Origin: a virus
Direction: 5' to 3' (one strand)
IMG/VR virus record: IMGVR_UViG_3300032297_000368
Coordinates: 17,470 to 81,469 of that record
DNA: 64,000 bases
Positions within the stretch are counted from its first letter, which is position 1, and every line of letters starts with the position of its first letter. The notes below the pieces were generated by a model. It ran no database searches and had not been told where the DNA came from. It saw nothing but the letters and a program-made list of their open reading frames with translations. The position numbers and the translations under genes were made by a program. Below are positions 17,386-61,327 of this stretch, in pieces.

Positions 17386-17688
17386 TTAACAATTCCATTT
17401 TCTCAACGATTTGTTGATACGTGAATCTGGATCACGTGCTGTTTCAGCTGATGTTAGTTTATCTTTCATGCCTCGCATTCTACGGCAGAATGATAATCTA
17501 CGTTTAGCTGACTTAGAACCTTTTTTTAATTTTGATGGATCTGTAGTAACAGCAGTTTGTAACTTGGAACCTGGATTTTCACGGCGATAAGATTCAACTC
17601 CTTTTTGGTTTAAACCACCTTCAGGATTTTTTCCTTCTTTACGCTGCCATGCCGCAGATTCGTTAATAAATTCTTTGAATGATATCAT
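17386..17688 (-). CDS. DUF6321-like protein with capsid-targeting-like N terminus
   Basis: 100 residues, strongly basic. It begins MISFKEFINE, like the T4 internal-protein capsid-targeting sequence, with a possible gp21 cleavage after I-N-E (residue 10). The rest (AWQRKEGKNPEGGLNQKG, then RRENPGSKLQTAVT, and RDPDSRINKSLRKWNC at the end) matches the small family I know as DUF6321, seen in phages and some cells, function unknown. The start overlaps the 746-residue gene stop by 4 bases (ATGA). Confidence 0.68.
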   Translation of the reverse strand: MISFKEFINESAAWQRKEGKNPEGGLNQKGVESYRRENPGSKLQTAVTTDPSKLKKGSKSAKRRLSFCRRMRGMKDKLTSAETARDPDSRINKSLRKWNC

Positions 17689-19925
17689 ACGAATTTCTTA
17701 GCCTTAAAAGTTTGTAGGTTAATACCTTTACGTTTCAGTTCACCTTCTTTTTGATCGCCAATACTCATAGTTGTTTCATCACCAGTCATCTCAGTAACTT
17801 GTGATGCCTTACCATCTTTCTTACGAATCTTTTCACCTGTATCACGAGCAATGCTTTCACCAGATGCCGCCATAGAAAGACCTGGTTCTATGTTCTTGTC
17901 TATGGATTCGGCGATTTTGGCTTTCTGCCTTTGCCTGATTTCGATGAGTGAGAGTTTTTCTCGTTGCTCGTTGTAGTTTTGTGGCTTGGCGATTTCGGTT
18001 TGTTTTGATACGTTTTCTTCGGGGTGTATGTCTTTTTTGGCTGGTCGATAGGCTTTAAATTTGGCTCTGATCGAGTCTGCTGCTGGGGTTGAGACGGTTG
18101 GATCGGTGTTGCTTCCGTCTGTTCCGTCTTCTTGAATAGTTTCTTTACGAAATCTAGCATCTTCATTCTCCTTTATTTTAACAATGTAGCCAGTTTTATG
18201 TTTCATCACTTCACCATTTTTTAGGTGAGCTTCTTTTGCTGCAGCTCTACGTAACATAAACACTCTCAATTTACCTTTACCATCACGTAGTAGTTTAACT
18301 TTTTCATCCAACAATTCAACATCTTCATCAACAAACAATTCTTCAAACTCTTCATTAACTTTCTTTCTTGGTTTCTTTGTCATTGATGTACCTGGAGTTG
18401 GAACTGAACCTGCTTCTTTTGGATCTTCTTTTGGTATTTCAACCAACTTACCATTAACTGAATGATGTGTAACTTTACCATTTCTACCATAACGGCCAAA
18501 TCCATAATAAGTTAATCCCATAGTATTCATCTTATCTTTATGTGGATTTTCTGGATGTGCAGCCATTGTTGTTTTACTTGGTGATGGTGCAGCAGACAAT
18601 CTATCTTTACGTGACATCTCATGTGCAATCCATTCTTCAGCCTTAGGATTGGCAGCAGGTTGTTGTGTGAATTCACGGACACTTTTGAAAATGTCCATCA
18701 TCTCACCTTTCTTTTGTTTAACAACTTCGGGTGGTGCTGATCTTAAATCTTCCGAATTATCAAACTCATGGTAATTATCACCAAACATTTTAGCATATTC
18801 AGTACGAGCATTCTGTACGCTTTCCCATTTTTCACGGCGAATGTTTTCTGGTACAGTACGACCACCACGTTGTCCACGTTCAATGTTTCTCTGTTGCGAG
18901 ACTTCATCTTTAGTATTAACTAGAACCATCTTGGAGTCATATCCAAGTTCTTCCAAACGTTTTTTGATCTTAGTAACTTTCTCTACATCATCACCTGTAC
19001 CATTGATGATAAGACCATTTCTACCTAATAGTGCCAATCGTTGGCGCAATTCGGTCATACTCTTTGCTTTACCACGAACAAGATTTCTTTTCTCTTCTTC
19101 ACTTGCCGGCATTTTCTTATCAAGACCATTTTTATCCATTAAGAATTCTAATGCCTTATCTGAATTGATCTCTGTCAATCCATGGCCTGATAGTGTGTTA
19201 TCTAACACATAGTCTTTACCAGAACCAGGTCCCCCAGCAAGAAATACTACTTTAAAGATTGATTGATCGTGAACACCTTCATTCAATAAACTTTCAAACT
19301 TGGTGTTGATATCTTCATGTAAGCTCATACCTTTATGTACATCATGCATTAATTCTTTTGCATGTTTATCTGATACATGTGCAGGTACACCTTTACGGAA
19401 AGATTTGAAATCATTGTTCTTAACATGTTCACGCATCTTTGTACCAGAAATGCCTGTATCACCTTCAGCATCCGGATCTCTTGTACCTGCGGAATGTATT
19501 GTGATCTTTTTGAAATGAAATGGTACTTTGCCTTCTTTGTTAGGTTTACCATTTAGTTCTTTGAATTTTTGTTTGTACTCGGGTACACGATCTGAACCTG
19601 CAACAACATGTAGATGTGTTACGCCACTCTTATGCAATTCAGCGGCATGTGAGAAAATGGTAGGATTTTCTTTACTAGAGGCTTTTATGTTGGCACCTGG
19701 AGCATAACGCTTTAAATGCTTAACTTTTTGTTCGCCAGATAATGGATTCTTTTTAGAATCTTGTGAGTGAGATACAATCATATGATGTTCGCCACCTACG
19801 TCTTTGGCAACATCTTGCACCTTATTAATAACTTTAAGGTGACCAGTGGTTGGTGGGTTCATACGACCGTAAGCTAATACGGCGTGTTTTTCTTTCTGTT
19901 CGACCAGAAAATCTTTGAAATTCAT
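17685..19925 (-). CDS. Cytidylyltransferase-like / P-loop kinase fusion, likely virion protein
   Basis: 746 residues. It begins MNFKDFLVEQ, a capsid-targeting-like peptide (possible cleavage after Glu9). Residues 15-190 form a nucleotidyltransferase with YGRMNPPTTGHLKVI (T-T-G-H at 26-29). A zeta-toxin/kinase-like domain follows with Walker A GGPGSGKD (about 229-236). The C-terminal third is charged and low-complexity, with VDEDVELLDE (about 540) matching the recurrent acidic peptide. A second gene overlaps in another frame at 17900-18160. The catalytic motifs suggest an active enzyme perhaps carried in the capsid; substrate unknown. Confidence 0.72.
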   Translation of the reverse strand: MNFKDFLVEQKEKHAVLAYGRMNPPTTGHLKVINKVQDVAKDVGGEHHMIVSHSQDSKKNPLSGEQKVKHLKRYAPGANIKASSKENPTIFSHAAELHKSGVTHLHVVAGSDRVPEYKQKFKELNGKPNKEGKVPFHFKKITIHSAGTRDPDAEGDTGISGTKMREHVKNNDFKSFRKGVPAHVSDKHAKELMHDVHKGMSLHEDINTKFESLLNEGVHDQSIFKVVFLAGGPGSGKDYVLDNTLSGHGLTEINSDKALEFLMDKNGLDKKMPASEEEKRNLVRGKAKSMTELRQRLALLGRNGLIINGTGDDVEKVTKIKKRLEELGYDSKMVLVNTKDEVSQQRNIERGQRGGRTVPENIRREKWESVQNARTEYAKMFGDNYHEFDNSEDLRSAPPEVVKQKKGEMMDIFKSVREFTQQPAANPKAEEWIAHEMSRKDRLSAAPSPSKTTMAAHPENPHKDKMNTMGLTYYGFGRYGRNGKVTHHSVNGKLVEIPKEDPKEAGSVPTPGTSMTKKPRKKVNEEFEELFVDEDVELLDEKVKLLRDGKGKLRVFMLRRAAAKEAHLKNGEVMKHKTGYIVKIKENEDARFRKETIQEDGTDGSNTDPTVSTPAADSIRAKFKAYRPAKKDIHPEENVSKQTEIAKPQNYNEQREKLSLIEIRQRQKAKIAESIDKNIEPGLSMAASGESIARDTGEKIRKKDGKASQVTEMTGDETTMSIGDQKEGELKRKGINLQTFKAKKFV
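17900..18160 (-). CDS. Candidate overlapping gene nested in the 746-residue gene
   Basis: An 86-residue reading frame on the same strand as, but out of frame with, the longer gene. ATG at 18160 is preceded by AAAGGAG (18168-18174) at 7 bases, an ideal ribosome binding site with no reason to exist inside another gene. The product starts as an amphipathic helix (MLDFVKKLFKKTEQ) and continues Pro/Lys-rich (12 Pro and 17 Lys in 86). Local G+C rises: I count 111/240 in 17881-18120 against 62/180 in 18181-18360. An upstream in-frame ATG at 18166 is too close to the ribosome binding site. Function unknown. Confidence 0.6.
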   Translation of the reverse strand: MLDFVKKLFKKTEQTEATPIQPSQPQQQTRSEPNLKPIDQPKKTYTPKKTYQNKPKSPSHKTTTSNEKNSHSSKSGKGRKPKSPNP

Positions 19926-19968
19926 GTCTGCCTCTACAGCAAAAAATATATTAAATTTTACTATCTAT

Positions 19969-20676
19969 TTAGTATATTTCTACTTTTCCTGTACTGGCCA
20001 TGGTGCCTTGGCAGTGAATATTTTCTAATTCTAACAGATATTTTTTGTCAATATTATACCAATGTGCATGTTCCGTGTCAACACCTTGCGTTTGTACATC
20101 GTTTAGATTTTTCTGGCAAACTTGCAGATAGTCGTCAAACAAAGATATACAGAAAGAAAACAATCTGGTAATTAGAAGATTCGAGTATATCTGTTGTCTC
20201 TTGTCCGTTATCCATGTTGGCATGGCTTTCTTGAACACATACTTACCAAACTTATCATGTTCTAGTGCATCGAATTGATCTAACAGGTTTGTACGTGCCG
20301 ACAATTTAAAGATTCGTTTGACTGAACTTAACTCTTTCATCAAATCCACATTACGTTTGAATATGATTAGAGTTTTAAGTATCAGTACATTTTCAGCCTC
20401 GCTCTTTCGACCTGTAGAAGCAAACTGTGTAATATCAGGATCAGTTGACATATCTAATATCACATCACAATAATGTGCAATTCTATCGTAAGTTTCACGG
20501 TCAACTTTATTAGGAGAACCATCAGTAAATACAATCATATCATGTGGACATTTTTCACGTAATGATTTAAGACCTTCTATTGTTTGTTGTAGTCGATCTT
20601 CATTGTTAATGACACCCATATTAGGATTCAAAGCAGATGTCACAATAAACAGATTTCTATTTAAAAGAATACTCAT
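19969..20676 (-). CDS. Putative glycosyltransferase-like protein
   Basis: 235 residues. The N terminus (LFIVTSALNPNMG, then HDMIVFTDGSPNKV) has the alternating beta/alpha look of a GT-A glycosyltransferase or related Rossmann-like fold. I see no clear DxD motif and cannot assign a family. The context is a block of glycan genes; it overlaps the epimerase gene by 4 bases. It is the last gene of the block, with a gap of 43 bases before the 746-residue gene. Confidence 0.5.
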   Translation of the reverse strand: MSILLNRNLFIVTSALNPNMGVINNEDRLQQTIEGLKSLREKCPHDMIVFTDGSPNKVDRETYDRIAHYCDVILDMSTDPDITQFASTGRKSEAENVLILKTLIIFKRNVDLMKELSSVKRIFKLSARTNLLDQFDALEHDKFGKYVFKKAMPTWITDKRQQIYSNLLITRLFSFCISLFDDYLQVCQKNLNDVQTQGVDTEHAHWYNIDKKYLLELENIHCQGTMASTGKVEIY

Positions 20677-21680
20677 AGTTTTATTTTTCTCATGGTGTCT
20701 ATCATCAAAGATTCTATGTCTGTATTAGGTTTCCAACCCAATATTTCTTTTGCCTTGTCATAAGAACCTAAGGCAAACTTATTAACTTCTCGTTCTAATA
20801 CTTCAGGCTTCAAAGTCTTCTCACCTTCATTCAGTACAGGATAACCTGACCAGAATTTGGTCGATGGATTAAATGTAGGTTTAATTGGTTCTTGAAATGC
20901 GGATTCAGCATAACCTATAATATCTCTAACTGAAGTTAATGTATTGGTGCATACATTAAAGATTTCATTCTTAGCTTCTTCTTTAGATAAGCATAACTCA
21001 ATCAGATTAACTACATCATCAACGTGTACATAATCTCGAACTTGTTTACCGTTTGAATAGAATACTGGATCTTTACCATTGATAATCGTCTTTGCGATAT
21101 AGTTAATCAAAGGTGGAGATTCACGATGAATGTCTTGTCTAGGACCAAATACATTGAAGAATCTTAGTGTAACGATATCCATGTCATAGTTCTTGATGTA
21201 TGATTGAATAACTTCTTCCATCAACTTCTTAGATAATGGATAGAATAATCGAGGTGTTACTTCTATATCTTCATCGAATGGTGCATCGAGTCTGCTATTG
21301 TTTTCGTATATTGCTGAAGTACTTGCAACAATAACTCTCTGGCCTCTAGACTTTCGAACTGCATCTAGTATCGATGCTGTACCTGCAACATTAACTTTGA
21401 TACACTCGGCAGGATCACTTTCACATACAGGCAATGCTGTTATAGCTGCAAGGTGAATGACTACATCGATCTTATGTTTCTCTAAAATGAAAAACATCTT
21501 AGCACTTTCTAAGATATCATCTTGGTAGAAATCACATATCATTTCACCATCTTCGATTAGGTTTGCTATGTAACCATTGTTGAGATTATCAACAACAACT
21601 GGAGTATGGCCATTATTTTTCAATAGTAGTGCTAGAGTAGAACCTATACCACCTGCACCACCAGTAATTAATATATTCAA
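20673..21680 (-). CDS. NAD-dependent sugar epimerase/dehydratase
   Basis: 335 residues, extended short-chain dehydrogenase family. The dinucleotide-binding motif is GGAGGIGS (7-14), the catalytic pair is Y-P-L-S-K (about 146-150), and VHLAAITALP, STSAIYENN and RDYVHVDDVV are typical of UDP-glucose 4-epimerase-like enzymes. It converts a nucleotide sugar, exact substrate unknown. The start is TTG at 21680 in a TTGA overlap with the upstream stop, with AAGGA upstream; no ATG fits without losing the GGAGGIG motif. Confidence 0.85.
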   Translation of the reverse strand: MNILITGGAGGIGSTLALLLKNNGHTPVVVDNLNNGYIANLIEDGEMICDFYQDDILESAKMFFILEKHKIDVVIHLAAITALPVCESDPAECIKVNVAGTASILDAVRKSRGQRVIVASTSAIYENNSRLDAPFDEDIEVTPRLFYPLSKKLMEEVIQSYIKNYDMDIVTLRFFNVFGPRQDIHRESPPLINYIAKTIINGKDPVFYSNGKQVRDYVHVDDVVNLIELCLSKEEAKNEIFNVCTNTLTSVRDIIGYAESAFQEPIKPTFNPSTKFWSGYPVLNEGEKTLKPEVLEREVNKFALGSYDKAKEILGWKPNTDIESLMIDTMRKIKL

Positions 21681-22696
21681 ATCAAGTCCTTCAATTGGTC
21701 AGAATCACGAGGTATGTTTACTGCTACTGCTGTTGGGTATGGATTAGTTTTAGCGTAATCATTAATCAAGATACGTTTTGAATGATGTACTTCCATAATC
21801 AAATCACAATCGGCAAAACCTAAATCATCTAATAGATTTCTAGTAATAGATTCATACTTTTTATTTCTTGCCGTACAGAAGATGATCTTACAACCTTCTT
21901 CTTTCTTTTGAATTAACTTCTGTACATTCTCCATGATTGGTTCATAATCATCATAGTAATCATTTTGAGTCTTGATTATTGTACCATCGATGTCGCAGAA
22001 ATAAGTAGGTTTATCATTGAATTTAAACCAATCATCGGCAGTACCAACATCAATAAAGTTTCTGGTATTTTGTTCTACGAATACACTGCCTGTAGATATC
22101 ATGTAATCGATAATATTAGATACGAATATCTCACTCTTCCATGTAGATGTTAGTAATCTATAAGCACGAGCAAAATCAGCCGCAGACTTAAACTGATAAC
22201 CACCTACACAAAAACTATCACTCACAATTTTCTTTTCAACTACTGAACTGATAATGTTTTGTTCATTAGTAATCGTATAACTTTTGGCTGGTGCGTTTCT
22301 TATATCAGGATTTTCAGATAACTTAGATACATAGATGGCATTTCCTTCTACCAAATCTGTATCATAAAAACCATCACAGTCTTTAATTAATATCGGTGAA
22401 TTCATATTGATTGCACCAGTCATCAACGTTTGATAAACTGTATCAGCAGGACCGGCAGTTGGTTGACCTAGAACAACAATACTAACCTTATCACCAAAAG
22501 CATCTTTCAATTTCTGTGAGGCCTTATACTTGTCATCATGCGCTCTCAGAATCGTAATAACAATCCTGTGTTTACCTAAGAAGTTTTTAATGGCATTTTC
22601 AATCATCATCTTACCCGAATAATCGGTAAGTAGATACTTTGGCCTCATATTCGGGAATCTGGTCGATAGACCAGCACATGGCATAATTATTTCCAT
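21677..22696 (-). CDS. Nucleotidyltransferase-HAD phosphatase fusion
   Basis: 339 residues. The N-terminal domain (about 1-225) is a sugar-phosphate or alcohol-phosphate nucleotidyltransferase: MPCAGLSTRFPNMRPKYLL near the start and DCDGFYD at about 105. The C-terminal domain begins YFCDIDGTII (about 232) and continues IIFCTARNKKY and ILINDYAKTNPYP, a HAD-type phosphatase. The two activities in one chain suggest synthesis of an activated intermediate from a phosphorylated precursor. It is next to an APH-like kinase. Substrate unknown. Confidence 0.8.
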   Translation of the reverse strand: MEIIMPCAGLSTRFPNMRPKYLLTDYSGKMMIENAIKNFLGKHRIVITILRAHDDKYKASQKLKDAFGDKVSIVVLGQPTAGPADTVYQTLMTGAINMNSPILIKDCDGFYDTDLVEGNAIYVSKLSENPDIRNAPAKSYTITNEQNIISSVVEKKIVSDSFCVGGYQFKSAADFARAYRLLTSTWKSEIFVSNIIDYMISTGSVFVEQNTRNFIDVGTADDWFKFNDKPTYFCDIDGTIIKTQNDYYDDYEPIMENVQKLIQKKEEGCKIIFCTARNKKYESITRNLLDDLGFADCDLIMEVHHSKRILINDYAKTNPYPTAVAVNIPRDSDQLKDLI

Positions 22697-23406
22697 AATT
22701 TCTTTATCTCATCTATCAAAAATTTTTCGTCAGTATCATTTCGTGTATATGGTAATACTCTCATCAACATCAAGATTAAAATATAATCATTATTAAAATG
22801 AGGATAATCTTGTAATCCATCAATTATAGATTGTAGTTTAGAATCTAAGTAAACTGAATCATTACGTATGAACCATTTACATTGTAAGTCTTGTCTTAGT
22901 TTTGCTAAGTCGAAAACAAATGAACTATAAACAGTTGTTAATGGATCAATTAAAACAAATTCATTCTTTTGTGTATTGTATAATACATTCTCTAGAGTAA
23001 AATCACCATGATACTCAGAATAAGGTAAATACTCTGGTAACTTACCAATTAATTCTTCTGTAGTAAAAGGTAAGTTGTATTGTGTAAAATCTTTCTCTGC
23101 TAACTTAGTTCTATAAACATCAACAAAACTCATCTCTATAGTCTTTTCAGATAGTTTGTCTATAGTTTCCCTAATGAATTTTATTATCTCATTAGTTTGA
23201 TTAGTTGCAAGATAAGTTTTCATATCTAGATTAGGAATATACTCCATATTATAATGAGTGTCAAGAACCTCATATATAATTGGTATTTTTATACCTAAAT
23301 GTGACAATACATCATATCTCTCCAAATTGCGAGAAATATCTCCAGACTTACGGACAAATATTCCGTTGTCATCTACTAATTCAACTTCAGCTTTAGAGTA
23401 TCCCAT
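22687..23406 (-). CDS. APH/choline-kinase-like small-molecule kinase
   Basis: 239 residues from ATG 23406. Kinase motifs of the aminoglycoside phosphotransferase/choline kinase fold are visible: YHGDFTLENVLY (catalytic H-G-D-x4-N) and FVLIDPLT (metal-binding Asp). It probably phosphorylates a sugar or alcohol for the neighbouring nucleotidyltransferase, as LicA does for LicC. The frame is open back to TTG 23430, but that would overlap the upstream gene and neither start has a good ribosome binding site; I prefer the ATG. It overlaps the next gene by 10 bases. Confidence 0.72.
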   Translation of the reverse strand: MGYSKAEVELVDDNGIFVRKSGDISRNLERYDVLSHLGIKIPIIYEVLDTHYNMEYIPNLDMKTYLATNQTNEIIKFIRETIDKLSEKTIEMSFVDVYRTKLAEKDFTQYNLPFTTEELIGKLPEYLPYSEYHGDFTLENVLYNTQKNEFVLIDPLTTVYSSFVFDLAKLRQDLQCKWFIRNDSVYLDSKLQSIIDGLQDYPHFNNDYILILMLMRVLPYTRNDTDEKFLIDEIKKLWK

Positions 23407-23414
23407 AAATTTTT

Positions 23415-24125
23415 TTAGTCTTTTTGCCAATTTTCAAAATCGTCCCGTATCAAAGAGTGCCATGTGCCGTTATGGGGACCTGGTGGAAAAGGATGATTTG
23501 GATTAAAATACACCAAGTTATGACCAACAAGACCTTTTTCTTTCCAGTTGGCACTCATCATATCTTCACCGATCATTGTAACGCCATCATCGTAATGTCT
23601 ATCAATGTTATTAAACGAATCTGCATAACTGTTCATATGTCGTGATGAAGAGAATGCAAATTGGTCATTACCAAAATCACGGTCAGGTGTCATTCGACAA
23701 TTTGGTATATACAGTTTAGAATCATCTAGTGTTTCAAATGGTATGACAACATTCAAAGCAAAGTCATATCGACTGCGAACAACCCAATCAAAATACATTT
23801 TATGTTCATGTTCATACTCCATCTTCAACTCATTAGCCTTCATCAAGGCATATTGTTGATTCCAAGTTGCACGTGCCGGATCTTTTACTTTCCAATTTGG
23901 TTGTGGAGGAGGAACTCTGGTGTATTTTGATAGATCATTATCTAGCGATGCCTCAACAGCAAACTTTGCAGGTTTGTATAGTTCGAATATATCTTTGGCC
24001 TTTGGTGTTTGCCATACATGACAGAATACGGTAACATCATAACGATCTAATAAATTCTTTTTATGATATTCAAACCCTTGTTCGAAACACCTAGGTTGTC
24101 CTGATAAACATAATGCAATTTTCAT
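23415..24125 (-). CDS. Glycosyltransferase-like protein
   Basis: 236 residues beginning MKIALCLSGQPRCFEQG, a start shared with phage and bacterial glycosyltransferase-like proteins that also show DWVVRSRYDFAL (about 123). The upstream gene starts similarly (MRIAICLFGIIYG) and has LFILTRSDIHFN in the equivalent place, so the two are probably distant paralogues. Substrate unknown. It overlaps the upstream gene by 4 bases. Confidence 0.6.
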   Translation of the reverse strand: MKIALCLSGQPRCFEQGFEYHKKNLLDRYDVTVFCHVWQTPKAKDIFELYKPAKFAVEASLDNDLSKYTRVPPPQPNWKVKDPARATWNQQYALMKANELKMEYEHEHKMYFDWVVRSRYDFALNVVIPFETLDDSKLYIPNCRMTPDRDFGNDQFAFSSSRHMNSYADSFNNIDRHYDDGVTMIGEDMMSANWKEKGLVGHNLVYFNPNHPFPPGPHNGTWHSLIRDDFENWQKD

Positions 24126-24823
24126 TTGTAGAATCTTTCAAAAACTTCTTCATTAATTTTATAATTACGATCTGATGGTAAATTAGTCCTACACAAAGTA
24201 TAGTAACTATTCACATCACTAAATTGCTCTTCTTGTGATATTAAATGTATCTCAGAAGGATCAATATACTGTATCAGTTTATTATATAGTCCATGTGTAT
24301 CATGTGACATTGCAGAATCTCTATATGCACCGTAAGATTCGTGTAGAGATTTCTTCACAATACTGGTCATTCTTTGTGGCCACACATAAAAATTATCTGT
24401 AGTATATCTTAAATCATTCCAATGGTTTGATTCTGGAAATAGAAAGTTAAATTTATTCACATCTATATTTTCATCTAACATAACTCTATTAAAGTGTATA
24501 TCAGAACGAGTTAAGATAAACAAGTCTGCATCTACAGTCTCTAATAAATCTAATGCGCCACTCTTTGTGGTGAATCCATCAGAGTTCTCAAACTTACAGT
24601 AATTAATCTCTTTAGGTTTTACTAAATCTACTATATCGGCTTCTATCAAAGGATTAAATGATTTGTATGTTGAAAGATATAATTCAACTTCATGACCACT
24701 TTGTATGGCAGGATCAACTAAATTCTTTTTGATATTTGGCCAACAATGACGAAGGTCTCTGAGACTGCCGAACTTGCCGCCAGTCCCGTAGATTATACCA
24801 AAAAGACAGATTGCTATTCTCAT
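24122..24823 (-). CDS. Glycosyltransferase-like protein
   Basis: 233 residues, beginning MRIAICLFGIIYGTGGKFG. The segment DADLFILTRSDIHFNRV (about 100-116) corresponds to the R-x-D motif of its downstream neighbour. Fold suggests a GT-A-like transferase. Start and stop overlap both neighbours by 4 bases (ATGA), the typical coupling in this block. Substrate unknown. Confidence 0.58.
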   Translation of the reverse strand: MRIAICLFGIIYGTGGKFGSLRDLRHCWPNIKKNLVDPAIQSGHEVELYLSTYKSFNPLIEADIVDLVKPKEINYCKFENSDGFTTKSGALDLLETVDADLFILTRSDIHFNRVMLDENIDVNKFNFLFPESNHWNDLRYTTDNFYVWPQRMTSIVKKSLHESYGAYRDSAMSHDTHGLYNKLIQYIDPSEIHLISQEEQFSDVNSYYTLCRTNLPSDRNYKINEEVFERFYK

Positions 24824-25389
24824 TTAACCCAATACCAAACATCACATTCGGTGGTCAAGATTTCTTTACCCATCTTGGCAGCAAATTCTTTTACTGCCTT
24901 ATTAACACCAGGTATTACAGTGAAATCATGTCCTGCAAATATACCACCATCTTTTACTTTTGAATAATAGTTTGCACAATCTATAGAGAGTTGCTCGTAA
25001 GTATGTAAACCATCAATAAAAATATAATCAAAAAAAGAATCATTTAAAAGTCCCACAGCCTCATCAGAAGTTTTTTTATAAAAATTAAATCTTTCACCAA
25101 AAGGTAATAGACGTTGCATTGCGGTATCAAAGACTTCATTTCGATTGTCTAAGTTTCTACCATTCCAATCAACATAAGTCATGTAAGGATCAATGACATG
25201 TAATGTTAATTGTGGTAAACTGGATAACATGAAGTGTGAAGTATCTCCTATATCACATCCAATTTCTAAACCAACAATTGATTCTCTATCTTTAACTAAG
25301 TCACGTAGTCCATAACCAGAACATTTCATCTCTGTTGCTGGTCGGCCAAATGCTTCATGCTCGGTGTTAATTGTAATTGTATCACTCAT
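24820..25389 (-). CDS. Class I SAM-dependent methyltransferase
   Basis: 189 residues. SAM-binding motif I is VGLEIGCDIGDTSHFM (about 39-54), followed by LHVIDPYM (motif II) and FDYIFIDGLHTYEQLSIDC (motif IV region), typical of Methyltransf_24 proteins. Located between glycosyltransferase-like genes, it probably methylates a sugar or glycan intermediate; this is inference. Overlaps the upstream gene by 8 bases. Confidence 0.8.
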   Translation of the reverse strand: MSDTITINTEHEAFGRPATEMKCSGYGLRDLVKDRESIVGLEIGCDIGDTSHFMLSSLPQLTLHVIDPYMTYVDWNGRNLDNRNEVFDTAMQRLLPFGERFNFYKKTSDEAVGLLNDSFFDYIFIDGLHTYEQLSIDCANYYSKVKDGGIFAGHDFTVIPGVNKAVKEFAAKMGKEILTTECDVWYWVK

Positions 25390-26224
25390 ATTTTGCCTCT
25401 ATAATTTTTTTCCATTCAGGTACACGATCATATTGATGCACTATTACATATTCTTTTCCTTCAGATGTAACAACTTTATCGCCTTCTAATTTAGGAGTTG
25501 CCTCTACTAAGAAAGGTTTGAATTGTTCTATCTTACTAGGATCAGCAGTAGTTCCTAATTGACATGCCCATCCATCTTCTGAAGTCATGTACATACTACT
25601 CTTCAAATAAGGATGTTGTGATATCAATACATTAAATGTAGATTGATCTACAATAGGAATTGGACGATTGATTGATGATAAGAAGATGTTTAATGCTAAA
25701 GACTTCATAGCATAACCACGGCCTGCCAATACACCAACGTTGAATATAACATTGTTCTTGAAGTGATCGTGAATCATAGGACCGAAAGTCTCTAATAGAT
25801 TCTGATTGCCCCATGGTTCATCTTTGTAACGAATGCTTTCAGAAGAGAATACTAAGTCTTCAGATGAACCATCTGGTAGATGTTGTTCTAACCATTCAAC
25901 AGGATTTTTCTGAAAGATAACGTCTTTAACATCAGTGGTAATAACATACCGATAGTCTTGTGATTTTAATGTATTGTAGATGTGAATGAATCTTTCAACG
26001 TGTACCATCAATTGAGATTGATACACTAAGTTTCCATTATCATCTTGTTGAAATGCAATAACACTGAAACCAGCATTACTGACTTGTTGAACTGTTTCTT
26101 TATCACAATTCATAAGAATCAGGACTTTATCGCCTTCAAATCCTGATTTATTAATTGAATTAACCCAATACTTCAGTTTCGACCAATCATAGTTAGTCGA
26201 ACATCCTATAATCAAATCCTTCAT
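25382..26224 (-). CDS. Putative glycosyltransferase
   Basis: 280 residues. MKDLIIGCSTNYDWSKLKYW at the start, YRYVITTDVKDVIFQKNP (about 91-108, with a D-V-K-D metal/sugar-nucleotide-binding type motif) and NVIFNVGVLAGRG suggest a GT-A glycosyltransferase. First gene of the eight-gene glycan block in transcription order. The substrate could be host surface glycan or a phage glycan. Confidence 0.6.
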   Translation of the reverse strand: MKDLIIGCSTNYDWSKLKYWVNSINKSGFEGDKVLILMNCDKETVQQVSNAGFSVIAFQQDDNGNLVYQSQLMVHVERFIHIYNTLKSQDYRYVITTDVKDVIFQKNPVEWLEQHLPDGSSEDLVFSSESIRYKDEPWGNQNLLETFGPMIHDHFKNNVIFNVGVLAGRGYAMKSLALNIFLSSINRPIPIVDQSTFNVLISQHPYLKSSMYMTSEDGWACQLGTTADPSKIEQFKPFLVEATPKLEGDKVVTSEGKEYVIVHQYDRVPEWKKIIEAKYE

Positions 26225-26237
26225 AATAACTCCAATT

Positions 26238-26972
26238 TTAATTTACATATTTTCTAAATCTTTTGATACTTTGACCTGGTGTTCCTTTTATATAGTTATC
26301 TCGTAGCTCTGGTCTTCCATCTTCACCCGCACCAGCCTTAGATACGAACTCTTGTTCTTCTTTAATAGTTCTAATAGAACCATTATGACTTGCTAGATAT
26401 GCTGAAAACTGTACATCTGGAAATTCTTTCTTCATTGCCAACATTGCTGTCAAATTACTCATAGCATCATCAAACAAACGAACTCTACTAAATTTACCAT
26501 ACTTTAAATATTTACGTATGATCTTAACTTTGTTTTCTGCACTAGGGTTATTACCTAGATTACCTGCACGTTCAACATAAACTTTATCCATATCAACACC
26601 GTGTTGCCTGAATGTATCTAGGAACAAATGTTTATTGTCGAAATCGGAACGTGCTGTGATTATTATAACACGACTATTGGATTTATTCGAGACATTTTTT
26701 AAAATACTCTTCAACTTTGCCATCATTCGTGGTATAACTTTTGATTCTTTATTGAACTTCTCAGCATCTCTAAACTGACTGTAATCAAATGATTCGCCAG
26801 CTTTAAGTTTATATGTATTAAACTCTTGATTAGTCAATTCTTTAATGACTTTACCAGATTTAATAACGGCAATCTTTGCTGTTGTTTGGAATAAAGTCTC
26901 ATCAATATCAAATATGGTAAGTCCACCACCTTCTTCGATAGACTCATTTAAAAATTGTGTGAAGTTTTTCAT
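26238..26972 (-). CDS. HAD-superfamily phosphatase with capsid-targeting-like N terminus
   Basis: 244 residues from ATG 26972. The frame stays open to 27008, but 26972 follows the Fe-S carrier stop and yields the N terminus MKNFTQFLNE, like the T4 capsid-targeting peptide (cleavage possible after Glu10). HAD motifs: FDIDETLFQT (Asp22, Asp24), IIITARSDFDN (motif II) and VRLFDDAMSN (motif IV). The C terminus has TPGQSIKRFRKYVN. A nucleotide or polynucleotide phosphatase is possible (T4 Pnkp has a HAD domain), but there is no kinase domain. Possible head-packaged enzyme. Confidence 0.72.
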   Translation of the reverse strand: MKNFTQFLNESIEEGGGLTIFDIDETLFQTTAKIAVIKSGKVIKELTNQEFNTYKLKAGESFDYSQFRDAEKFNKESKVIPRMMAKLKSILKNVSNKSNSRVIIITARSDFDNKHLFLDTFRQHGVDMDKVYVERAGNLGNNPSAENKVKIIRKYLKYGKFSRVRLFDDAMSNLTAMLAMKKEFPDVQFSAYLASHNGSIRTIKEEQEFVSKAGAGEDGRPELRDNYIKGTPGQSIKRFRKYVN

Positions 26973-26977
26973 TTTTA

Positions 26978-27298
26978 TTATACTGTGAATGATGATCCAC
27001 AACCGCAACTTGCTTTTGCGTTTGGATTATTTACTACGAATTGAGAAGATGTCATATCTTTTTTGAAGTCTATGGTTGCTTCATTTAAATATTGCATTGA
27101 TATTGCATCTACTAAAACTTTAATGCCGTGTTGTTCAAATGATAGATCATCTTCTGAAGCCTGTTCTTCAATTGTAAACCCATATTGAAAACCAGAACAA
27201 CCACCACCTTGAACAAATACACGCAATGAACCTGGAGTATCTTCATCTTCTAAAATACTTTTTATTTGTTTTGCTGCCGATTCTGTAATCTGTATCAC
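26978..27298 (-). CDS. A-type Fe-S cluster carrier (IscA/ErpA-like)
   Basis: 106 residues with the three conserved cysteines of HesB/IscA/ErpA proteins: Cys34 in GGGCSGFQYGF and Cys98/Cys100 in SCGCGSSF. A-type carriers receive and hand on Fe-S clusters to apoproteins; viral copies are known in marine phages as auxiliary metabolic genes. Start is GTG at 27298 with GAGAGG five bases upstream; the adjacent ATG in another frame reads straight into a stop. Target proteins in this phage unknown. Confidence 0.9.
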   Translation of the reverse strand: MIQITESAAKQIKSILEDEDTPGSLRVFVQGGGCSGFQYGFTIEEQASEDDLSFEQHGIKVLVDAISMQYLNEATIDFKKDMTSSQFVVNNPNAKASCGCGSSFTV

Positions 27299-27299
27299 A

Positions 27300-27581
27300 T
27301 TAACCTCTCGTTAGATTCAATATCTTTTGTATTTGAGTCTCTAATGTTTCTTTACGGTTTGGCCATTTAATGATTGGTTGATCTGCCGTCTTTAATAATT
27401 TAGTTAAGAAAGGCAATATTAATTTCTCGACTTGTTGTAAACGTTCTTTATATTCTTCTGCCGTTTCTTCTTTCTCGGCAATTACATCTGTATATTCTTC
27501 TTCATCTATTGCTGTGAATCCGAAATCATCATCAGCAAATTCATCAATAATTTTACTTAGGTCAAATTTCTTTTCAGCCAT
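27300..27581 (-). CDS. Small acidic protein, unknown
   Basis: 93 residues. An acidic N-terminal half (IIDEFADDDFGFTAIDEEEY) precedes a helical part (LQQVEKLILPFLTKLLKTA) and a NRKETLETQIQKILNLTRG end. I recall similar small proteins in T4-like marine phages but no function. It abuts both neighbours, so it belongs to the block led by the promoter at 30065. Confidence 0.55.
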   Translation of the reverse strand: MAEKKFDLSKIIDEFADDDFGFTAIDEEEYTDVIAEKEETAEEYKERLQQVEKLILPFLTKLLKTADQPIIKWPNRKETLETQIQKILNLTRG

Positions 27582-28807
27582 TATTTACTCCAATTCTTAG
27601 CAGCATTAAAGTTTGCTTGACTAAACTCTAATCTATCTACAAGTTTTACCGCATTACCTTTAAGTCTATCAACAGCAACAAATCCTTCTGGTGCTGTAAT
27701 TCTATAACCATCGTCTGTACGTATGAATGTACCGATTGAACGAATGGTTTCTAATTTACGTACAATCAATAATTTACAATCAACTAAAAGATTCATCAGT
27801 TCAAAAATCTTTTGTAATTCGCCAGCAGAACCACGGAAGAATCTCATCATCTCATTCTTCTCTGCAATTCTTTTCTTCTTAGTATCATCTCTCTTTGCTG
27901 CTTGTACTTCTTTATTTAACTTCTCTTCAATCCATTTTATCAGTTCAACAGTGTGAGCTCTTGTATTGGTAATCTTCTGCCCTTGGCGTATCTTTGTGTT
28001 GTTGAATGTTTTAATGAAAGTTAGAATAGAATCTACGGAAGATATTCTATTTAACACTATAGAATTAATACTTCTAAATGTTCTACCTGCTTCGGTTAAT
28101 TTACTTGAAAGTATTTTAGTTTCAGTTTCGGTGAATGTTGCAGTACCTGAAGCATCAGTGAATGAAGCATCACGGAACCAAACATCTTTAGTTGTTGATA
28201 GATTACCAATATCGATGTTGAATGATGCCTTCATATCAGACATTGTTTTACCTGTGTATGAGGTATGAAACACTACACCAACATGTGCAGCCATCATTGT
28301 CTTTGCCAGTTTAGAATCTGAAGGCACAGCATAAACAATTGTATTAGGTTGAAACACTATGTACTCTTCACCATCAATTATTTTTGTATCGATATCACCT
28401 TTACTAAACATCATATCACCTTGAAGGATGCCTTTGATGCCTAGTTTAGGTAGATAACGTAATGCCATTTTAAGTTTATTGTTAAGACCTTCAGAAGCAT
28501 GATTGTTATCAATATCTTCTTCTGTATAATTTAATTTAGCATCTTTATTGAATACTGATTTAGTACCAACAAAAAACTTACCGTTTTCTGGATTGGTGCC
28601 AACAAAAATTGCTGGCGCACCGTCCCATTTAGTTGTGATATTAATCTTTGACTGTGCATGACCAGCAAGCATATCACGCAAACTTTGTAAGAAATTTATG
28701 GCACCTCGAGCACCAGCAACTCCGCCATTTAAGACTTCATCTTCTAGATGTTCGAGGTGTAAATTCTTACCTTGTTTATCTTCTGTTAAATATTCTATGA
28801 ATTTCAT
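27581..28807 (-). CDS. DUF6267-like protein, ligase/nucleotidyltransferase-like, capsid-targeting-like N terminus
   Basis: 408 residues. Starts MKFIEYLTED, a capsid-targeting-like peptide with possible cleavage after Glu9. TTKWDGAPAIFVG (about 59-71) contains K-x-D-G, the nucleotidyl-lysine motif of ATP-dependent ligases; GILQGDMMF (about 126) could be motif III; VAVDRLKGNAVKLVDRLEF near the end resembles motifs IV/V. I know such phage proteins as DUF6267 without a function. The ligase-fold reading is my inference. A charged helical part (about 290-330) precedes the end. Confidence 0.65.
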   Translation of the reverse strand: MKFIEYLTEDKQGKNLHLEHLEDEVLNGGVAGARGAINFLQSLRDMLAGHAQSKINITTKWDGAPAIFVGTNPENGKFFVGTKSVFNKDAKLNYTEEDIDNNHASEGLNNKLKMALRYLPKLGIKGILQGDMMFSKGDIDTKIIDGEEYIVFQPNTIVYAVPSDSKLAKTMMAAHVGVVFHTSYTGKTMSDMKASFNIDIGNLSTTKDVWFRDASFTDASGTATFTETETKILSSKLTEAGRTFRSINSIVLNRISSVDSILTFIKTFNNTKIRQGQKITNTRAHTVELIKWIEEKLNKEVQAAKRDDTKKKRIAEKNEMMRFFRGSAGELQKIFELMNLLVDCKLLIVRKLETIRSIGTFIRTDDGYRITAPEGFVAVDRLKGNAVKLVDRLEFSQANFNAAKNWSK

Positions 28808-28809
28808 TT

Positions 28810-30036
28810 TTAGTATATCTTTACAAATGGTCCGTTAGTGTCTCTAAATTCTTTCTTTGCACCATAGTATAATGTTTTCAACCATTCAGCCATTAATCCT
28901 TTCTTCTCGATTAAAGCCCAAGCATATGCCCATCTCATACATGTCAACTTTGATGATAATCTTCCACCAGCATACTTAGAACCCTCCTCTCGAATAGAAT
29001 AATCTAATACATTAGCAAACGAACCAGTAGAAACTATTTTACCTTTATACACAACTTTCATTTCACCAAAATCTATACTCATACGATTGACTTTAAGTTT
29101 AGATAACTCTTTTTGAAAATCAATCCAATATTTTTTAGTTTCTGTTGTCCATTTTCCTACAGGAGGAATATGAGGGTCTTTACCTGCATTAACTGGTCTA
29201 ATTATTCCGAGTTTATTATAATATTTCGAAAAGAACTCATCAATGGCGTCAGCAGAAGCTTTACCAATTTTAGCACCAGCATCTTTTCCTGTAGGAGTTA
29301 AATCGGTCTGAACACCACCTCTAGGAGTTGACATGTTAAAGTTTCTTGTTTGCCAATTAACAATTGTATCGTTCACTTTAAATTGTCCAGCAATTTCTCC
29401 ATTATCTATCTCTGTTGGAGTTTTGTTATTTGTTCCGAAATTTGCATAACACTTCAAGGGGCCAACATTTTCAAATGTTAACTCTTTCTGTTTGCCTTTA
29501 CCCATATTAGATAATTCTAAATCAGCTTTAGCTTTAGTTTTAGAAATAGCTTTAAGTGATACAGGAACTAAATCTTTAGTTTGTATTAATTCTCTCATGT
29601 ACGCATTTAAAGAATAAAGATTGGCCATTTTATCAGGATTTTTAGTGATTGAATCTAATTTTTTTCTTATTACATTTTCTTTTGTTTTTCTAACCATGTA
29701 AATATCAGCAGGATCCCAATTATCTTTTGTTGAAACGCCACATCTTTTTTTAGCAATATCTTCAATGAATGCCATAAAACCATCTCGTTCATCACGAGAA
29801 TAGGAATATCCTTTATTACTATCGCCTAGATAATTTTTTAGAGCAATACATTGTTTAGTGTATGTAGATAACCATATTTCTCTAAGTTTTACGTCTTTAG
29901 CTAATTGAGGATAAACTTGTACGATCTCAGAAAACAACTGAGATTCTGTAGGTGTTTTAACACTTTCAATCCATAATTTGAAAGCAACTTTAGAACCATT
30001 CTCTTGTTTAGCTGTCTCTATCGCATTGCCGGCCAT
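28810..30036 (-). CDS. Phage protein of unknown function
   Basis: 408 residues. The N-terminal half is helical with KDNWDPADIYMVRK (about 103); the C-terminal half has FGEMKVVYKGKIVSTGS and LTCMRWAYAWALIEKKG. I do not recognise a family. It is the first gene after a double promoter (sigma70 and late) at 30065-30098 and has a GGAG ribosome binding site, so it may be expressed both early and late. It lies 2 bases upstream of the ligase-like gene. Confidence 0.6.
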   Translation of the reverse strand: MAGNAIETAKQENGSKVAFKLWIESVKTPTESQLFSEIVQVYPQLAKDVKLREIWLSTYTKQCIALKNYLGDSNKGYSYSRDERDGFMAFIEDIAKKRCGVSTKDNWDPADIYMVRKTKENVIRKKLDSITKNPDKMANLYSLNAYMRELIQTKDLVPVSLKAISKTKAKADLELSNMGKGKQKELTFENVGPLKCYANFGTNNKTPTEIDNGEIAGQFKVNDTIVNWQTRNFNMSTPRGGVQTDLTPTGKDAGAKIGKASADAIDEFFSKYYNKLGIIRPVNAGKDPHIPPVGKWTTETKKYWIDFQKELSKLKVNRMSIDFGEMKVVYKGKIVSTGSFANVLDYSIREEGSKYAGGRLSSKLTCMRWAYAWALIEKKGLMAEWLKTLYYGAKKEFRDTNGPFVKIY

Positions 30037-30064: not shown

Positions 30065-30072
30065 TATTTATA
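30065..30072 (-). promoter_or_regulatory. T4-type late promoter box
   Basis: Minus strand reads TATAAATA, exact match to the T4 late element, 29 bases before the ATG at 30036. It overlaps the -10 box of a sigma70 promoter at 30070-30098. Confidence 0.75.
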
Positions 30073-58243: not shown

Positions 58244-59578
58244 TTACATTAAGTTAGCAATCTTGAATGCACGGTAGTACAGGTTGGTCTTGGCGTTAAT
58301 AGCGCCCATACCTTGTGTAGCACCTTCAGCAAATGGGTTAGCAACTAGACCATAACGTGTCTTGAAGCCGATCTTTGGTTGGAAGTTGTTTGTGTCAACT
58401 GCACGAACCATTTGCAGAGGAACGTATGGGCAGTAGAAAATACCTGCGTCATAAGCGTTCGAACCTTTGTAACCCATAACAGCGAATTCAGCTGTTGAGT
58501 TAGCAGCAAAATATGGATCGATATACACTTTGATACGACCAAACAGAGTACCAGCAAAAGTGTTACCTGTGTCATCAACGGTTAAGTTGATGTTTGAGCT
58601 GAGTGCTGATTGATAGTCAAGAATACCAGCCATTGCCAAAGCAGATGCTACGTCTGAAGAACAGATCATAACATTACCTTTGCCACGACGGGTTGTCTTA
58701 GCGATGGTGTTAGCTTCACGCTCTAATTGGAATGCCAAACCTTTGATCTTTTCAACCATCCAACGACCGTTAGAATCTGTATCTAAGTCAAATGTACCAG
58801 CAGTAGTTGTACCTACTTGAGCACCAACTTTAGCGGTTGTATAGATTGTACGGATAACTTCACGGTTGATCTCAGCAAGAATTTCTGTTGAGAGGATGTT
58901 GCTTAATTCGGTTTCTGCGTCTAGACCATGAACTGCTTTCAAGTCTTGTGCAAGTTCCATTGAGTATTCTGCCTTCAAAGCACGTGTCTTTGCAGTTACA
59001 GAAACTTTCTCAATTGAGAATGCCATTTCTTGGAATGTCAAATCTTCAGCAACCGAAGTAGCCATAGCTTGACCAGTTGCAACTGTCGAAGCAAATACGT
59101 TTTGTGAACCGAATGCTGTGTTAGCAGCAAGTGAAACTGCGGTATGGGACAATTTGTCGCCAGACCATGCTGTGTTAGCCTCATTGTAGAATGCTTCAGA
59201 AGCACCAGCAGCAACGTTTTGTGATGCATAGGTTGAACGCATTGCGAAGATCAAACCTGTAGGACCAGTCATTGGTTGAACACCGCAGATGTCATAAGCG
59301 ATCAGGTTTGGTAATGAACGGCGAACTAAAGAAATCAGGATTGGATCAAAACCAGCAACAGGACCTACGGCAGCAGAACCACCGGAGAAACCTGTACCAC
59401 CCAATGAATTGGTTGGTGCTGTCTCTTGAAGCATTTGACCTGATTTTTGCATCTCTTGAGCTTGGTTCTCAAGAATAACTGCTGTAACTGCCTTACGATA
59501 TGGATCTTTAATCGCTGGCAAATCTGGGTGGTCGAGTACGCCTTCCCATTTCTTTTGTAAATTTTCAGAAAGATACAT
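58244..59578 (-). CDS. gp23: Major capsid protein (T4 gp23-like)
   Basis: 444 residues. PNLIAYDICGVQPMTGPTGL is the hallmark of gp23. The N-terminal region is cut by gp21: MLQETAPTN gives an L-x-E site at residues 50-52, in the place of T4's cleavage after Glu65. AAGGAGATTTAAAG precedes the ATG. Followed by a strong terminator. Confidence 0.97.
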   Translation of the reverse strand: MYLSENLQKKWEGVLDHPDLPAIKDPYRKAVTAVILENQAQEMQKSGQMLQETAPTNSLGGTGFSGGSAAVGPVAGFDPILISLVRRSLPNLIAYDICGVQPMTGPTGLIFAMRSTYASQNVAAGASEAFYNEANTAWSGDKLSHTAVSLAANTAFGSQNVFASTVATGQAMATSVAEDLTFQEMAFSIEKVSVTAKTRALKAEYSMELAQDLKAVHGLDAETELSNILSTEILAEINREVIRTIYTTAKVGAQVGTTTAGTFDLDTDSNGRWMVEKIKGLAFQLEREANTIAKTTRRGKGNVMICSSDVASALAMAGILDYQSALSSNINLTVDDTGNTFAGTLFGRIKVYIDPYFAANSTAEFAVMGYKGSNAYDAGIFYCPYVPLQMVRAVDTNNFQPKIGFKTRYGLVANPFAEGATQGMGAINAKTNLYYRAFKIANLM

Positions 59579-59599: not shown

Positions 59600-60640
59600 T
59601 TAAATTTTTGTTTTCGAAATTGCTTGCATTACTGAAGCGACATATGGATCAGCAGTTGCTGTTTTCTTTTCGCCTGCTTCAGCATCTTCTACCTGTTCGT
59701 GTAATTGCTTCTCATTGGCTTTTACAATGCCAGATGGGAAATAGTTTTCACGGATTGTTTCAAGTTTCTCAGTGAATTCTTCCTCTGTGGAAAATTCTAC
59801 ACTCTCTGCGAGTGATTTGATTTTTTCAACTTGAGTTGCCGTTAAACCTTCACAAACGGTACGAACGATATCTGTCTTTGTAGATTCTACAAGAGCTTTC
59901 TTGTATTCGATACCACGCTCAATCTCTTCATTGAGTTTAGTTTCTAAATCTTCTACTTTACCAGAAAGTTCATCAACTAGGTCAACCTTGTCTTCTGGAA
60001 CATCGATGTAATGTTCAGCAAACAGATTGCGTAAACCTGCGATAAACTCTTCAGTTAACTCTGAACGTAAACCAGATTCGATAGCGATTTGATTCTCTTC
60101 AACCCACTGTTCAACAACGTAGTTGAGGTAGTCATCAACCTTCTCGGTTAATTCTGATTTAACAGCTTCAACAGCTTCTTCTAACATAGAAGAGTATTGT
60201 GCTTCAATTTGTTCTTCAATTTGAGCAACACGGTCAGTAACACGTGCTTCAAAAATTGTAGCTACTTTAGATTTGAACTCTTCAGAAATGGTAGAATCAT
60301 CGGCAAATAAAGCATCAACATCTTCCTTCATTTGCTGTTTCATTTCTTTCTTAGCTTCCAAAACGACTTCTTCATCTTCAACTTCTACGTCTTCTTTTTT
60401 CATCTTCAACTGAGTATCAGGAGAAGCATCAGAAGGCTTAGTTGTTGGAGCTGTAGCACTCTTAGCTGCTTTGGTTGTATCCAATTTAGCAGAATCATCG
60501 TCTGGTTTGTAATTCTGAGGGGTAGGACCACCAACATCTACTTCAGTAGATGGTAGTTTTTGAGGAGGCATTGCGGATGCTTTTGACTTGCTACCAGACA
60601 AAATATCAGCTGCTGCTTCCATAAGTTTATTTGTTGCCAT
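59600..60640 (-). CDS. gp22: Prohead scaffold protein (T4 gp22-like)
   Basis: 346 residues, charged and helical. An N-terminal low-complexity Pro/Ser/Thr/Lys region (about 15-85) precedes a long coiled coil with LFAEHYIDVPEDKVDLVDEL and a C terminus FPSGIVKANEKQLHEQVEDA. Forms the core around which gp23 assembles and is degraded by gp21. Late promoter at 60666 and AAAGGAG upstream. Confidence 0.92.
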   Translation of the reverse strand: MATNKLMEAAADILSGSKSKASAMPPQKLPSTEVDVGGPTPQNYKPDDDSAKLDTTKAAKSATAPTTKPSDASPDTQLKMKKEDVEVEDEEVVLEAKKEMKQQMKEDVDALFADDSTISEEFKSKVATIFEARVTDRVAQIEEQIEAQYSSMLEEAVEAVKSELTEKVDDYLNYVVEQWVEENQIAIESGLRSELTEEFIAGLRNLFAEHYIDVPEDKVDLVDELSGKVEDLETKLNEEIERGIEYKKALVESTKTDIVRTVCEGLTATQVEKIKSLAESVEFSTEEEFTEKLETIRENYFPSGIVKANEKQLHEQVEDAEAGEKKTATADPYVASVMQAISKTKI

Positions 60641-60665: not shown

Positions 60666-60673
60666 TATTTATA
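60666..60673 (-). promoter_or_regulatory. T4-type late promoter box
   Basis: TATAAATA on the minus strand, exact match, 26 bases upstream of gp22. Drives gp22 and gp23. Confidence 0.78.
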
Positions 60674-60676
60674 AAA

Positions 60677-61327
60677 TTACAGTTTTCTTAAAAAATTCTC
60701 GAATAAATGAAGAGCGACTTCTTCTATTTGTTTAGAAGAGGCAGTTCTTATTTGTCTCTTTGCATTGTCGATGTCGCACTCTACATAACGACCTTCAACA
60801 AATAACCATTCTTTATTTTCCATGATACCTTGTACAAAAGCACCAGGTGCCGAAGGATCAGCAACGATATCTGCGGCTGTCGCTAAACGAAAGTCGTCCT
60901 GAACGATATTGTATCCCTCTTTAGCTTGAACCAAAGAACCCATACCACGAGAAGAAACTCCAAGGTTAACTCCCGAATCAATAAAGTTTTTAACGATTTG
61001 ACCGTATGGTGTATCTAAGATTAATGCCTTACCGACAAATGTGTTACCATCTTCTTTTAAGGAAACAATCTTATGTGAAACTCTTTCGAGGTTGATAGAA
61101 GGTGTATCTGGATGACCAAGTTCACCTAAAGCTCTATTAGTTTCAACGTACTCTTTCATATAACGAGACACTTCATTACGAAGTGTTTCCATCTTATAGT
61201 AACGTCTATTTCTATTAGGTTCATCGCCTACTAGAAAACGACCTTCAATATAAAGATTCTTCTTACCTGATTCGGTTGTCTCGGTGAGATAGTTTACATT
61301 CTCGACAACTTCTTTTATTAATTTCAT
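60677..61327 (-). CDS. gp21: Prohead maturation protease (T4 gp21-like)
   Basis: 216 residues, serine protease of the herpesvirus-like assemblin fold. RFLVGDEPNRNRRYYKMET, GELGHPDTPSINLERVSH (catalytic His) and GVSSRGMGSL (catalytic Ser) are visible. Cuts after [LI]-x-E in prohead proteins. The N terminus NYLTETTE carries a likely self-processing site (L14-T-E16). Confidence 0.94.
   Translation of the reverse strand: MKLIKEVVENVNYLTETTESGKKNLYIEGRFLVGDEPNRNRRYYKMETLRNEVSRYMKEYVETNRALGELGHPDTPSINLERVSHKIVSLKEDGNTFVGKALILDTPYGQIVKNFIDSGVNLGVSSRGMGSLVQAKEGYNIVQDDFRLATAADIVADPSAPGAFVQGIMENKEWLFVEGRYVECDIDNAKRQIRTASSKQIEEVALHLFENFLRKL

Follow-up and report, generated by a model that had tools for sequence, protein, structure and literature searches.

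Why should four unrelated proteins of a marine T4-like phage start with almost the same nine or ten residues? The question is raised by a stretch of 64,000 nucleotides (the window; positions 17470-81469 of the 81,469-base viral record IMGVR_UViG_3300032297_000368), in which a DUF6321 protein, a 746-amino-acid fusion of a cytidylyltransferase and a kinase, a phosphatase of the HAD superfamily and a DUF6267 protein share the N-terminal pattern F-x-x-[FY]-[IL]-x-E. The initial annotation of this DNA had taken the pattern for a portable capsid-targeting tag by which the enzymes are packed in the phage head. This core proposal was supported by our analysis and passed every test that could be run: the tag agrees with the critical residues of a known capsid-targeting sequence (CTS), is present on proteins from the virions of three cyanophages, occurs in genomes encoding the prohead protease gp21, is associated with late promoters and is conserved in front of divergent proteins. 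We consider it highly probable that the shared N terminus is a CTS of the type found in T4 internal protein III (IPIII), and propose that the proteins bearing it would be loaded into the head, trimmed by gp21 and delivered together with the DNA.

All four N termini and their common pattern, as given by the annotation, proved to be exact and are encoded on the minus strand. MISFKEFINE, MNFKDFLVE and MKFIEYLTE start at the ATG codons at 17688, 19925 and 28807, respectively; MKNFTQFLNE starts at the ATG at 26972, which lies within a longer mechanically predicted open reading frame (ORF) opening at TTG 27008. Of 116 N termini called mechanically in the 81-kb record, three have the strict motif F..[FY][IL].E, and reading the HAD gene from its ATG makes them four; the numbers expected by chance are 0.11 on the basis of the motif density within these proteins and 0.03 by shuffling. 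No further called gene of the record carries the motif. A looser [LI]-x-E anywhere near the N terminus was not enriched (9 seen, 8.6 expected) and was rejected as a signal, so that the signal is the full four-position motif. The domains that follow it in the four proteins are mutually unrelated.

The four fixed positions of the tag are the same four residues that mutagenesis has defined in the CTS of IPIII. There, the first 10 residues are enough for packaging; targeting depends on residues 4 and 7, and processing by gp21 on residues 8 and 10. Targeting can be separated from cutting, as with Asp at position 10 (Mullaney and Black; reviewed in PMC9026906). When the strict pattern was run over the T4 genome, it matched only IPII, IPIII and gp61.1, and the maturation site of T4 gp23, AFGSFLTE/A (the slash marks the cut here and below), has a form equal to the tag. 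The gp61.1 protein (AF158101, L007:18966-19130; 54 amino acids, annotated as hypothetical) starts with a full CTS, MKTFKEFIKE/D, and is possibly an unrecognised internal head protein.

Tagged relatives are found in published virion proteomes. For cyanophage S-CREM2, whose virion was analysed by mass spectrometry (PMC10665884), the original strict motif is carried by ORFs 6, 14 and 154 only, and all three products are in the virion. With the tag residues widened to [LIMF] and [FLY] after a first look at this phage, the number of tagged ORFs rises to six of 219, and five of these encode non-structural proteins detected by mass spectrometry (hypergeometric P=1.3e-4), namely a SAM hydrolase (MKDFDSFLEE), an APH-like kinase (MKRFDAFLTE), a cytidylyltransferase (MKNFSSFLTE), ORF13 and ORF136; the sixth is only 55 amino acids long. 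Enzymes such as the ribonucleotide reductase of S-CREM2 are not in the published virion table. Of the 225 genes called in S-SM1, a single one is a strict carrier; it encodes the cytidylyltransferase T4-GC190, which was detected in the virion by Sullivan et al. The virion NMNAT of S-SCSM1 starts with MKSFLQFLKE and is the only carrier within the 35 kb examined. Cleavage after the glutamate would leave the N termini ADEKQQQ (ORF154), FDRDQESLEESSLSR (ORF6) and EETEAHK (ORF14) in S-CREM2 and AAESGASVQAK (ORF91) in S-SCSM1. A separate observation concerns S-CREM2 ORF12 (L008:7704-10313), a Cas9-like nuclease of the virion proteome with a CTS-like site, FASFMAE/A, close to its N terminus; it is possible that a phage packs a Cas9-like enzyme into its head.

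The cargo genes have their nearest relatives in Kyanoviridae, namely Methylophilales phage Melnitz, Pelagibacter phage HTVC008M and cyanophages. Among relatives of the HAD protein, 33 of 43 carry the tag, with F4, [FY]7, [IL]8 and E10 kept, the residues between them variable and insertions or deletions in the linker that leads to the FDIDET core. For DUF6267, whose relatives were recruited by patterns lying outside the tag, the leaders show the strict tag in 49 and [IL]xE in 73 of 74 cases. Close homologues of the fusion keep M-x-F-x-x-F-[IL]-x-E, and in relatives of the DUF6321 protein the AAWQRKEGK core is immediately preceded by a CTS or by an [LI]xE site.

Viral contigs were further scanned for a ribosome-binding site followed by ATG and the tag, with the same residues at another spacing as control. 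At least 120 tagged stretches were obtained versus 49 in all for the control, which is imperfect in that some of its matches (e.g. MKSFKQYFLE) also fit F..[FY]F.E; such records were split off because all gp21-bearing controls belong to them. Among the matches listed, 109 tagged proteins of at least 60 amino acids fell into 41 clusters, and 50 mostly unrelated ones had only M1, K2, F3, F6 and E9 in common. Their Pfam families comprise SAM lyase, adenylate kinase, ADP-ribosyltransferase, Zeta/AAA kinases, CTP_transf_like, DnaJ, protein kinase, DUF6267 and DUF6321; L170:4617-6551, L190:3954-4532 and L231:3283-4269 of the viral contigs are tagged proteins that gave no Pfam match. Also among the matches listed, additional tagged genes made up 49 of 1,232 genes in the tag-recruited contigs and none of 391 in the controls (P=1.6e-6), a count that leaves out the recruiting gene and is cleaner than one including the query families and one tag-derived search pattern. 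Per-position entropies were not used as evidence, being partly circular (the sites had been chosen by a regular expression). The prohead protease gp21 was encoded in 18 of the 21 listed tagged contigs of at least 70 kb, two of which look like one virus, versus none of six untagged controls. The window itself encodes gp21, as the initial annotation had stated (Peptidase_S77, E=8.5e-38).

The association extends to late promoters. An exact T4-type late promoter, TATAAATA, is present three times in the window, each time on the coding strand and 25-28 bases before a gene start: before gp22, before gene 14294 and before the gene starting at 30036, the head of the operon that contains the DUF6267 and HAD genes. 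The promoter of this operon, which had escaped the initial annotation together with the internal site of the fusion (below), has the same sequence as that of gp22. In S-CREM2, TATAAATA is found at nine genes, including those of the SAM hydrolase and the cytidylyltransferase and the gene that opens the ORF15-14-13-12 operon. Among 65 DUF6267 genes compared across viral loci, 40 are preceded by it within 2.5 kb on their own strand and none on the opposite strand, and a late promoter lies near 17 of 100 tagged genes as compared to 50 of 1,079 neighbours (P=1.6e-5).

The tag also recurs inside the fusion, where FESLLNE/GVHD separates the cytidylyltransferase from the kinase domain, and nearly all fusion homologues have F[EN]x[LI]LxE/GVHD at this place. 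Stand-alone kinases begin at the glutamate of the internal site, as in MIPFILKE/GLYDPGIFK (HTVC008M), MKTFAELQE/GVYD (Melnitz) and MKTFQDFIQE/GVND (L146); the kinase domain of the window aligns with those of HTVC008M (E=2e-49) and L146 (E=2e-30). The simplest reading of these sequences would be that tagged genes were fused and the tags stayed as protease sites. As the site recurs between the NMNAT-like and kinase domains, gp21 would also cut a cargo polyprotein into separate enzymes. On balance, we lean towards a portable module of seven residues in marine T4-like phages, which would serve as N-terminal address tag and as internal linker, so that cargo polyproteins would enter the head in one piece and be split into separate enzymes by the capsid-maturation protease ahead of injection. 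Another possible, though rather doubtful, account is that the packaged proteins stay uncut or are cut at the N-terminal site only, with the internal site acting as a flexible linker. A linker derived from an old N terminus would stay somewhat alike without being cut, and the separability of targeting and cutting in T4 fits this account as well. So does the degenerate state, in the window, of a third site, VNEEFE-x-F[LI]xE, that many relatives possess after the kinase. What speaks for cutting is the glutamate directly before the kinase start G[VL][HNY]D..IFK, which is kept in every linker and every stand-alone kinase found by the search, and position -3, which is mostly hydrophobic while the residue between it and the glutamate varies. 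As to the third site, the relative L099 (92% identical) has about 50 more residues with an intact FEQFIKEA, and the window copy appears to have lost them.

Several points weigh against the tag as a head-targeting signal. The five of six in S-CREM2 rely on a residue set widened post hoc, and the virion papers themselves allow for carry-over of abundant proteins. The tag is not universal within a family: a subgroup of the HAD relatives starts with MKITDLLEAEG, the DUF6267 protein of S-SM1 is untagged and the cytidylyltransferase of HTVC008M starts with MKTLKELLRKK. No exact TATAAATA immediately precedes the genes of the fusion and of DUF6321, and the fold search with DUF6267 yielded no significant match. 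For the virus of the window, docking, cleavage and injection would hold by analogy, where presence in the virion is read across from S-CREM2, S-SM1 and S-SCSM1 and injection from the T4 internal proteins. A tag that docks proteins to another phage assembly, be it the replication complex, a membrane site or another compartment, would combine with carry-over to explain the virion data, and the cargo families do resemble metabolic or replication helpers. We regard this as very unlikely: the tag positions coincide with the T4 head-targeting residues, a docking-only tag gives no reason for a conserved Glu at P1 and Leu or Ile at P3, tagged genes accompany gp21 and late promoters, and in S-CREM2 the tag singles out virion proteins from 219 ORFs, and enzymes such as its ribonucleotide reductase are missing from the published virion table. 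Chance or shared ancestry without function, to which the adjacency of two of the four tagged genes and the commonness of amphipathic N termini might point, is scarcely credible given the chance expectations above, the unrelated downstream domains, the conservation of the tag before variable linkers in distant homologues and its absence from further genes of the control contigs.

With the tag taken as a CTS, the newly synthesised protein would be docked into the prohead's scaffold core through the aromatic residues that occupy the first two fixed positions of the tag. Cleavage by gp21 after the glutamate ([IL]-x-E/) would free the mature enzyme inside the head, and the same protease would split the fusion between its NMNAT-like and kinase domains, a cut that we infer from the internal site. 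DNA would then be packed around the freed enzymes, which would exit with it at the next infection and could act before any phage gene is expressed.

Which functions might be delivered in this way? The domain names given by the initial annotation hold for CTP_transf_like and the Zeta_toxin/AAA_33 kinase, for DUF6321 and for DUF6267; the NMNAT-like and kinase roles are family assignments, and the C-terminal part of the fusion received no function assignment. Its description of the set as enzymes applies less well to DUF6321, a family with no known enzymatic activity. The HAD label is weak by sequence (DUF2608, acid phosphatase B; polynucleotide kinase), yet the FDID-x-T core is invariant and the best structural matches in the PDB are HAD domains (E=6e-5), so that motif and fold support a HAD phosphatase. 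A second short module, GAG-x-WGT..EL...Y..DTPGQ, recurs in several cargo proteins, this one and those of L121 and L123-L125, and may be a further shuffled element. DUF6267 had been called ligase-like. The motifs K60-W-D62-G63 (K-x-D-G) and E374-G375 and residue K388 are indeed invariant or nearly so in 38-40 homologues, while the AlphaFold2 model (mean predicted local distance difference test score 77) found its best PDB fold match at E=0.5, with several weak matches to capping enzymes or ligases, and a profile search gave no PDB sequence match; an identification as RNA ligase was rejected on these searches. Judged from its families, the cargo would most plausibly be a set of immediate-early tools that counters host defence by NAD/nucleotide or RNA repair, comprising a putative NAD/nucleotide adenylyltransferase, a small-molecule or polynucleotide-type kinase, a HAD phosphatase, the KxDG nucleotidyltransferase-like DUF6267 protein and DUF6321. 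A repair role at entry is plausible because the T4 internal proteins, which are packaged, trimmed and injected, block type IV restriction on entry (PMC12373910).

Table 1. Positions in the window of the predicted cargo genes, their tags, and associated head genes and promoters (slash, predicted cut).
Feature	Position	Strand	Remarks
DUF6321 protein, 100 aa	17386..17688	-	DUF6321 E=2.6e-19
Predicted CTS of DUF6321 protein	17659-17688	-	MISFKEFINE/S
746-aa fusion	17685..19925	-	NMNAT-like cytidylyltransferase aa 17-127; Zeta-toxin/AAA_33-type kinase aa 225-372
Degenerate third site of fusion	18324..18347	-	FEELFVDE, aa 527-534, after VNEE
Internal CTS-like site of fusion	19278..19298	-	FESLLNE/G, aa 210-216, enzyme-domain junction
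Predicted CTS of fusion	19899-19925	-	MNFKDFLVE/Q
HAD-superfamily phosphatase, 244 aa	26238..26972	-	
Predicted CTS of HAD phosphatase	26943-26972	-	MKNFTQFLNE/S
DUF6267 protein, 408 aa	27581..28807	-	Nucleotidyltransferase-like motifs
Predicted CTS of DUF6267 protein	28781-28807	-	MKFIEYLTE/D
First gene of late operon	28810..30036	-	phrog_1462; no CTS
T4-type late promoter	30065..30072	-	TATAAATA; heads DUF6267-HAD run
gp23 major capsid protein	58244..59578	-	Candidate gp21 site GQMLQE/T
gp22 scaffold	59600..60640	-	Late promoter TATAAATA at 60666-60673
gp21 prohead protease	60677..61327	-	Peptidase_S77; predicted processing enzyme

The genes behind the promoter at 30065 form a tightly packed run (30036-28810, DUF6267, 27581-27300, an Fe-S protein and HAD), and the head genes for portal, gp21, gp22 and gp23 lie at 58-64 kb. 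The Fe-S assembly protein of the run (PF01521, 26978-27298) is untagged, and a glycosyltransferase/NDP-sugar cassette occupies 19969-26224 in the middle of the cargo region. The whole gene row as cargo was rejected, as this cassette, the Fe-S protein and gene 28810-30036 are untagged; for the latter, homology to the tagged genes that open the Melnitz and HTVC008M operons was also dismissed, as it gave no significant match to them.

Like the proteins of the window, T4 IPI-IPIII have an N-terminal peptide of 9-10 residues with aromatics at 4 and 7, I/L at 8 and E at 10, and gp21 in the genome. They are small, whereas the tag described here sits on large multi-domain enzymes and between the domains of a fusion, and in viral contigs on about 40 protein clusters. 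T4 Alt is likewise an enzyme carried in the head, an ADP-ribosyltransferase with a late promoter and an N terminus (MELITE) cut by gp21, but the F..[FY] part is absent from its propeptide, which is also the shorter one; one ADP-ribosyltransferase-like protein (PF03496) belongs to the tagged set, and nothing Alt-like was identified in the window. Head ejection proteins of phiKZ and SPN3US are cut after Glu by a gp21-related protease, yet several have propeptides of more than 100 residues (PMC5694885), whereas the tag of the window proteins has the T4 form with 9-10 residues before the predicted cut and no long propeptide of that type occurs among them. DarB of P1 is an anti-restriction protein loaded into the head by a portable N-terminal signal, although a separate one (about residues 6-10; the first 30 amino acids are sufficient) in another head assembly (PMC9024508). 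NMNAT/cytidylyltransferases, the family of the N-terminal domain of the fusion, have been reported in cyanophage virions, and it was proposed that the phage brings them into its host; the accessible parts of these reports name no packaging signal (PMC3037559, PMC9602691, PMC10665884), and the CTS on these proteins was found here. The version in the window differs in being fused to a kinase.

The ip genes of T-even phages were found through their CTS (PMC12373910), and a review has suggested that the CTS may be a general device of T4-like phages (PMC9026906); in the literature searched, this review was the only text in which 'capsid targeting sequence' and 'cyanophage' occurred together. What is new with respect to that literature is that the tag occurs on named marine-phage enzymes, agrees with published virion proteomes, is associated with gp21 and late promoters, and is used again between domains.

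Cyanophage virion proteomes have repeatedly contained unexplained metabolic enzymes, such as NMNAT, SAM hydrolase, a kinase and even a Cas9-like protein, and their authors could not tell cargo from contamination; a tag that can be read in the sequence helps to resolve this. The internal sites suggest that the capsid protease doubles as a processor of cargo polyproteins. The repertoire of SAM lyases, ADP-ribosyltransferase, adenylate kinase, NMNAT, kinases, HAD and DnaJ proteins looks like immediate counter-defence and host takeover, and the tag could steer the search for new counter-defence proteins. It would predict from sequence which proteins an uncultured marine phage brings into its host, a prediction that can be checked in existing spectra.

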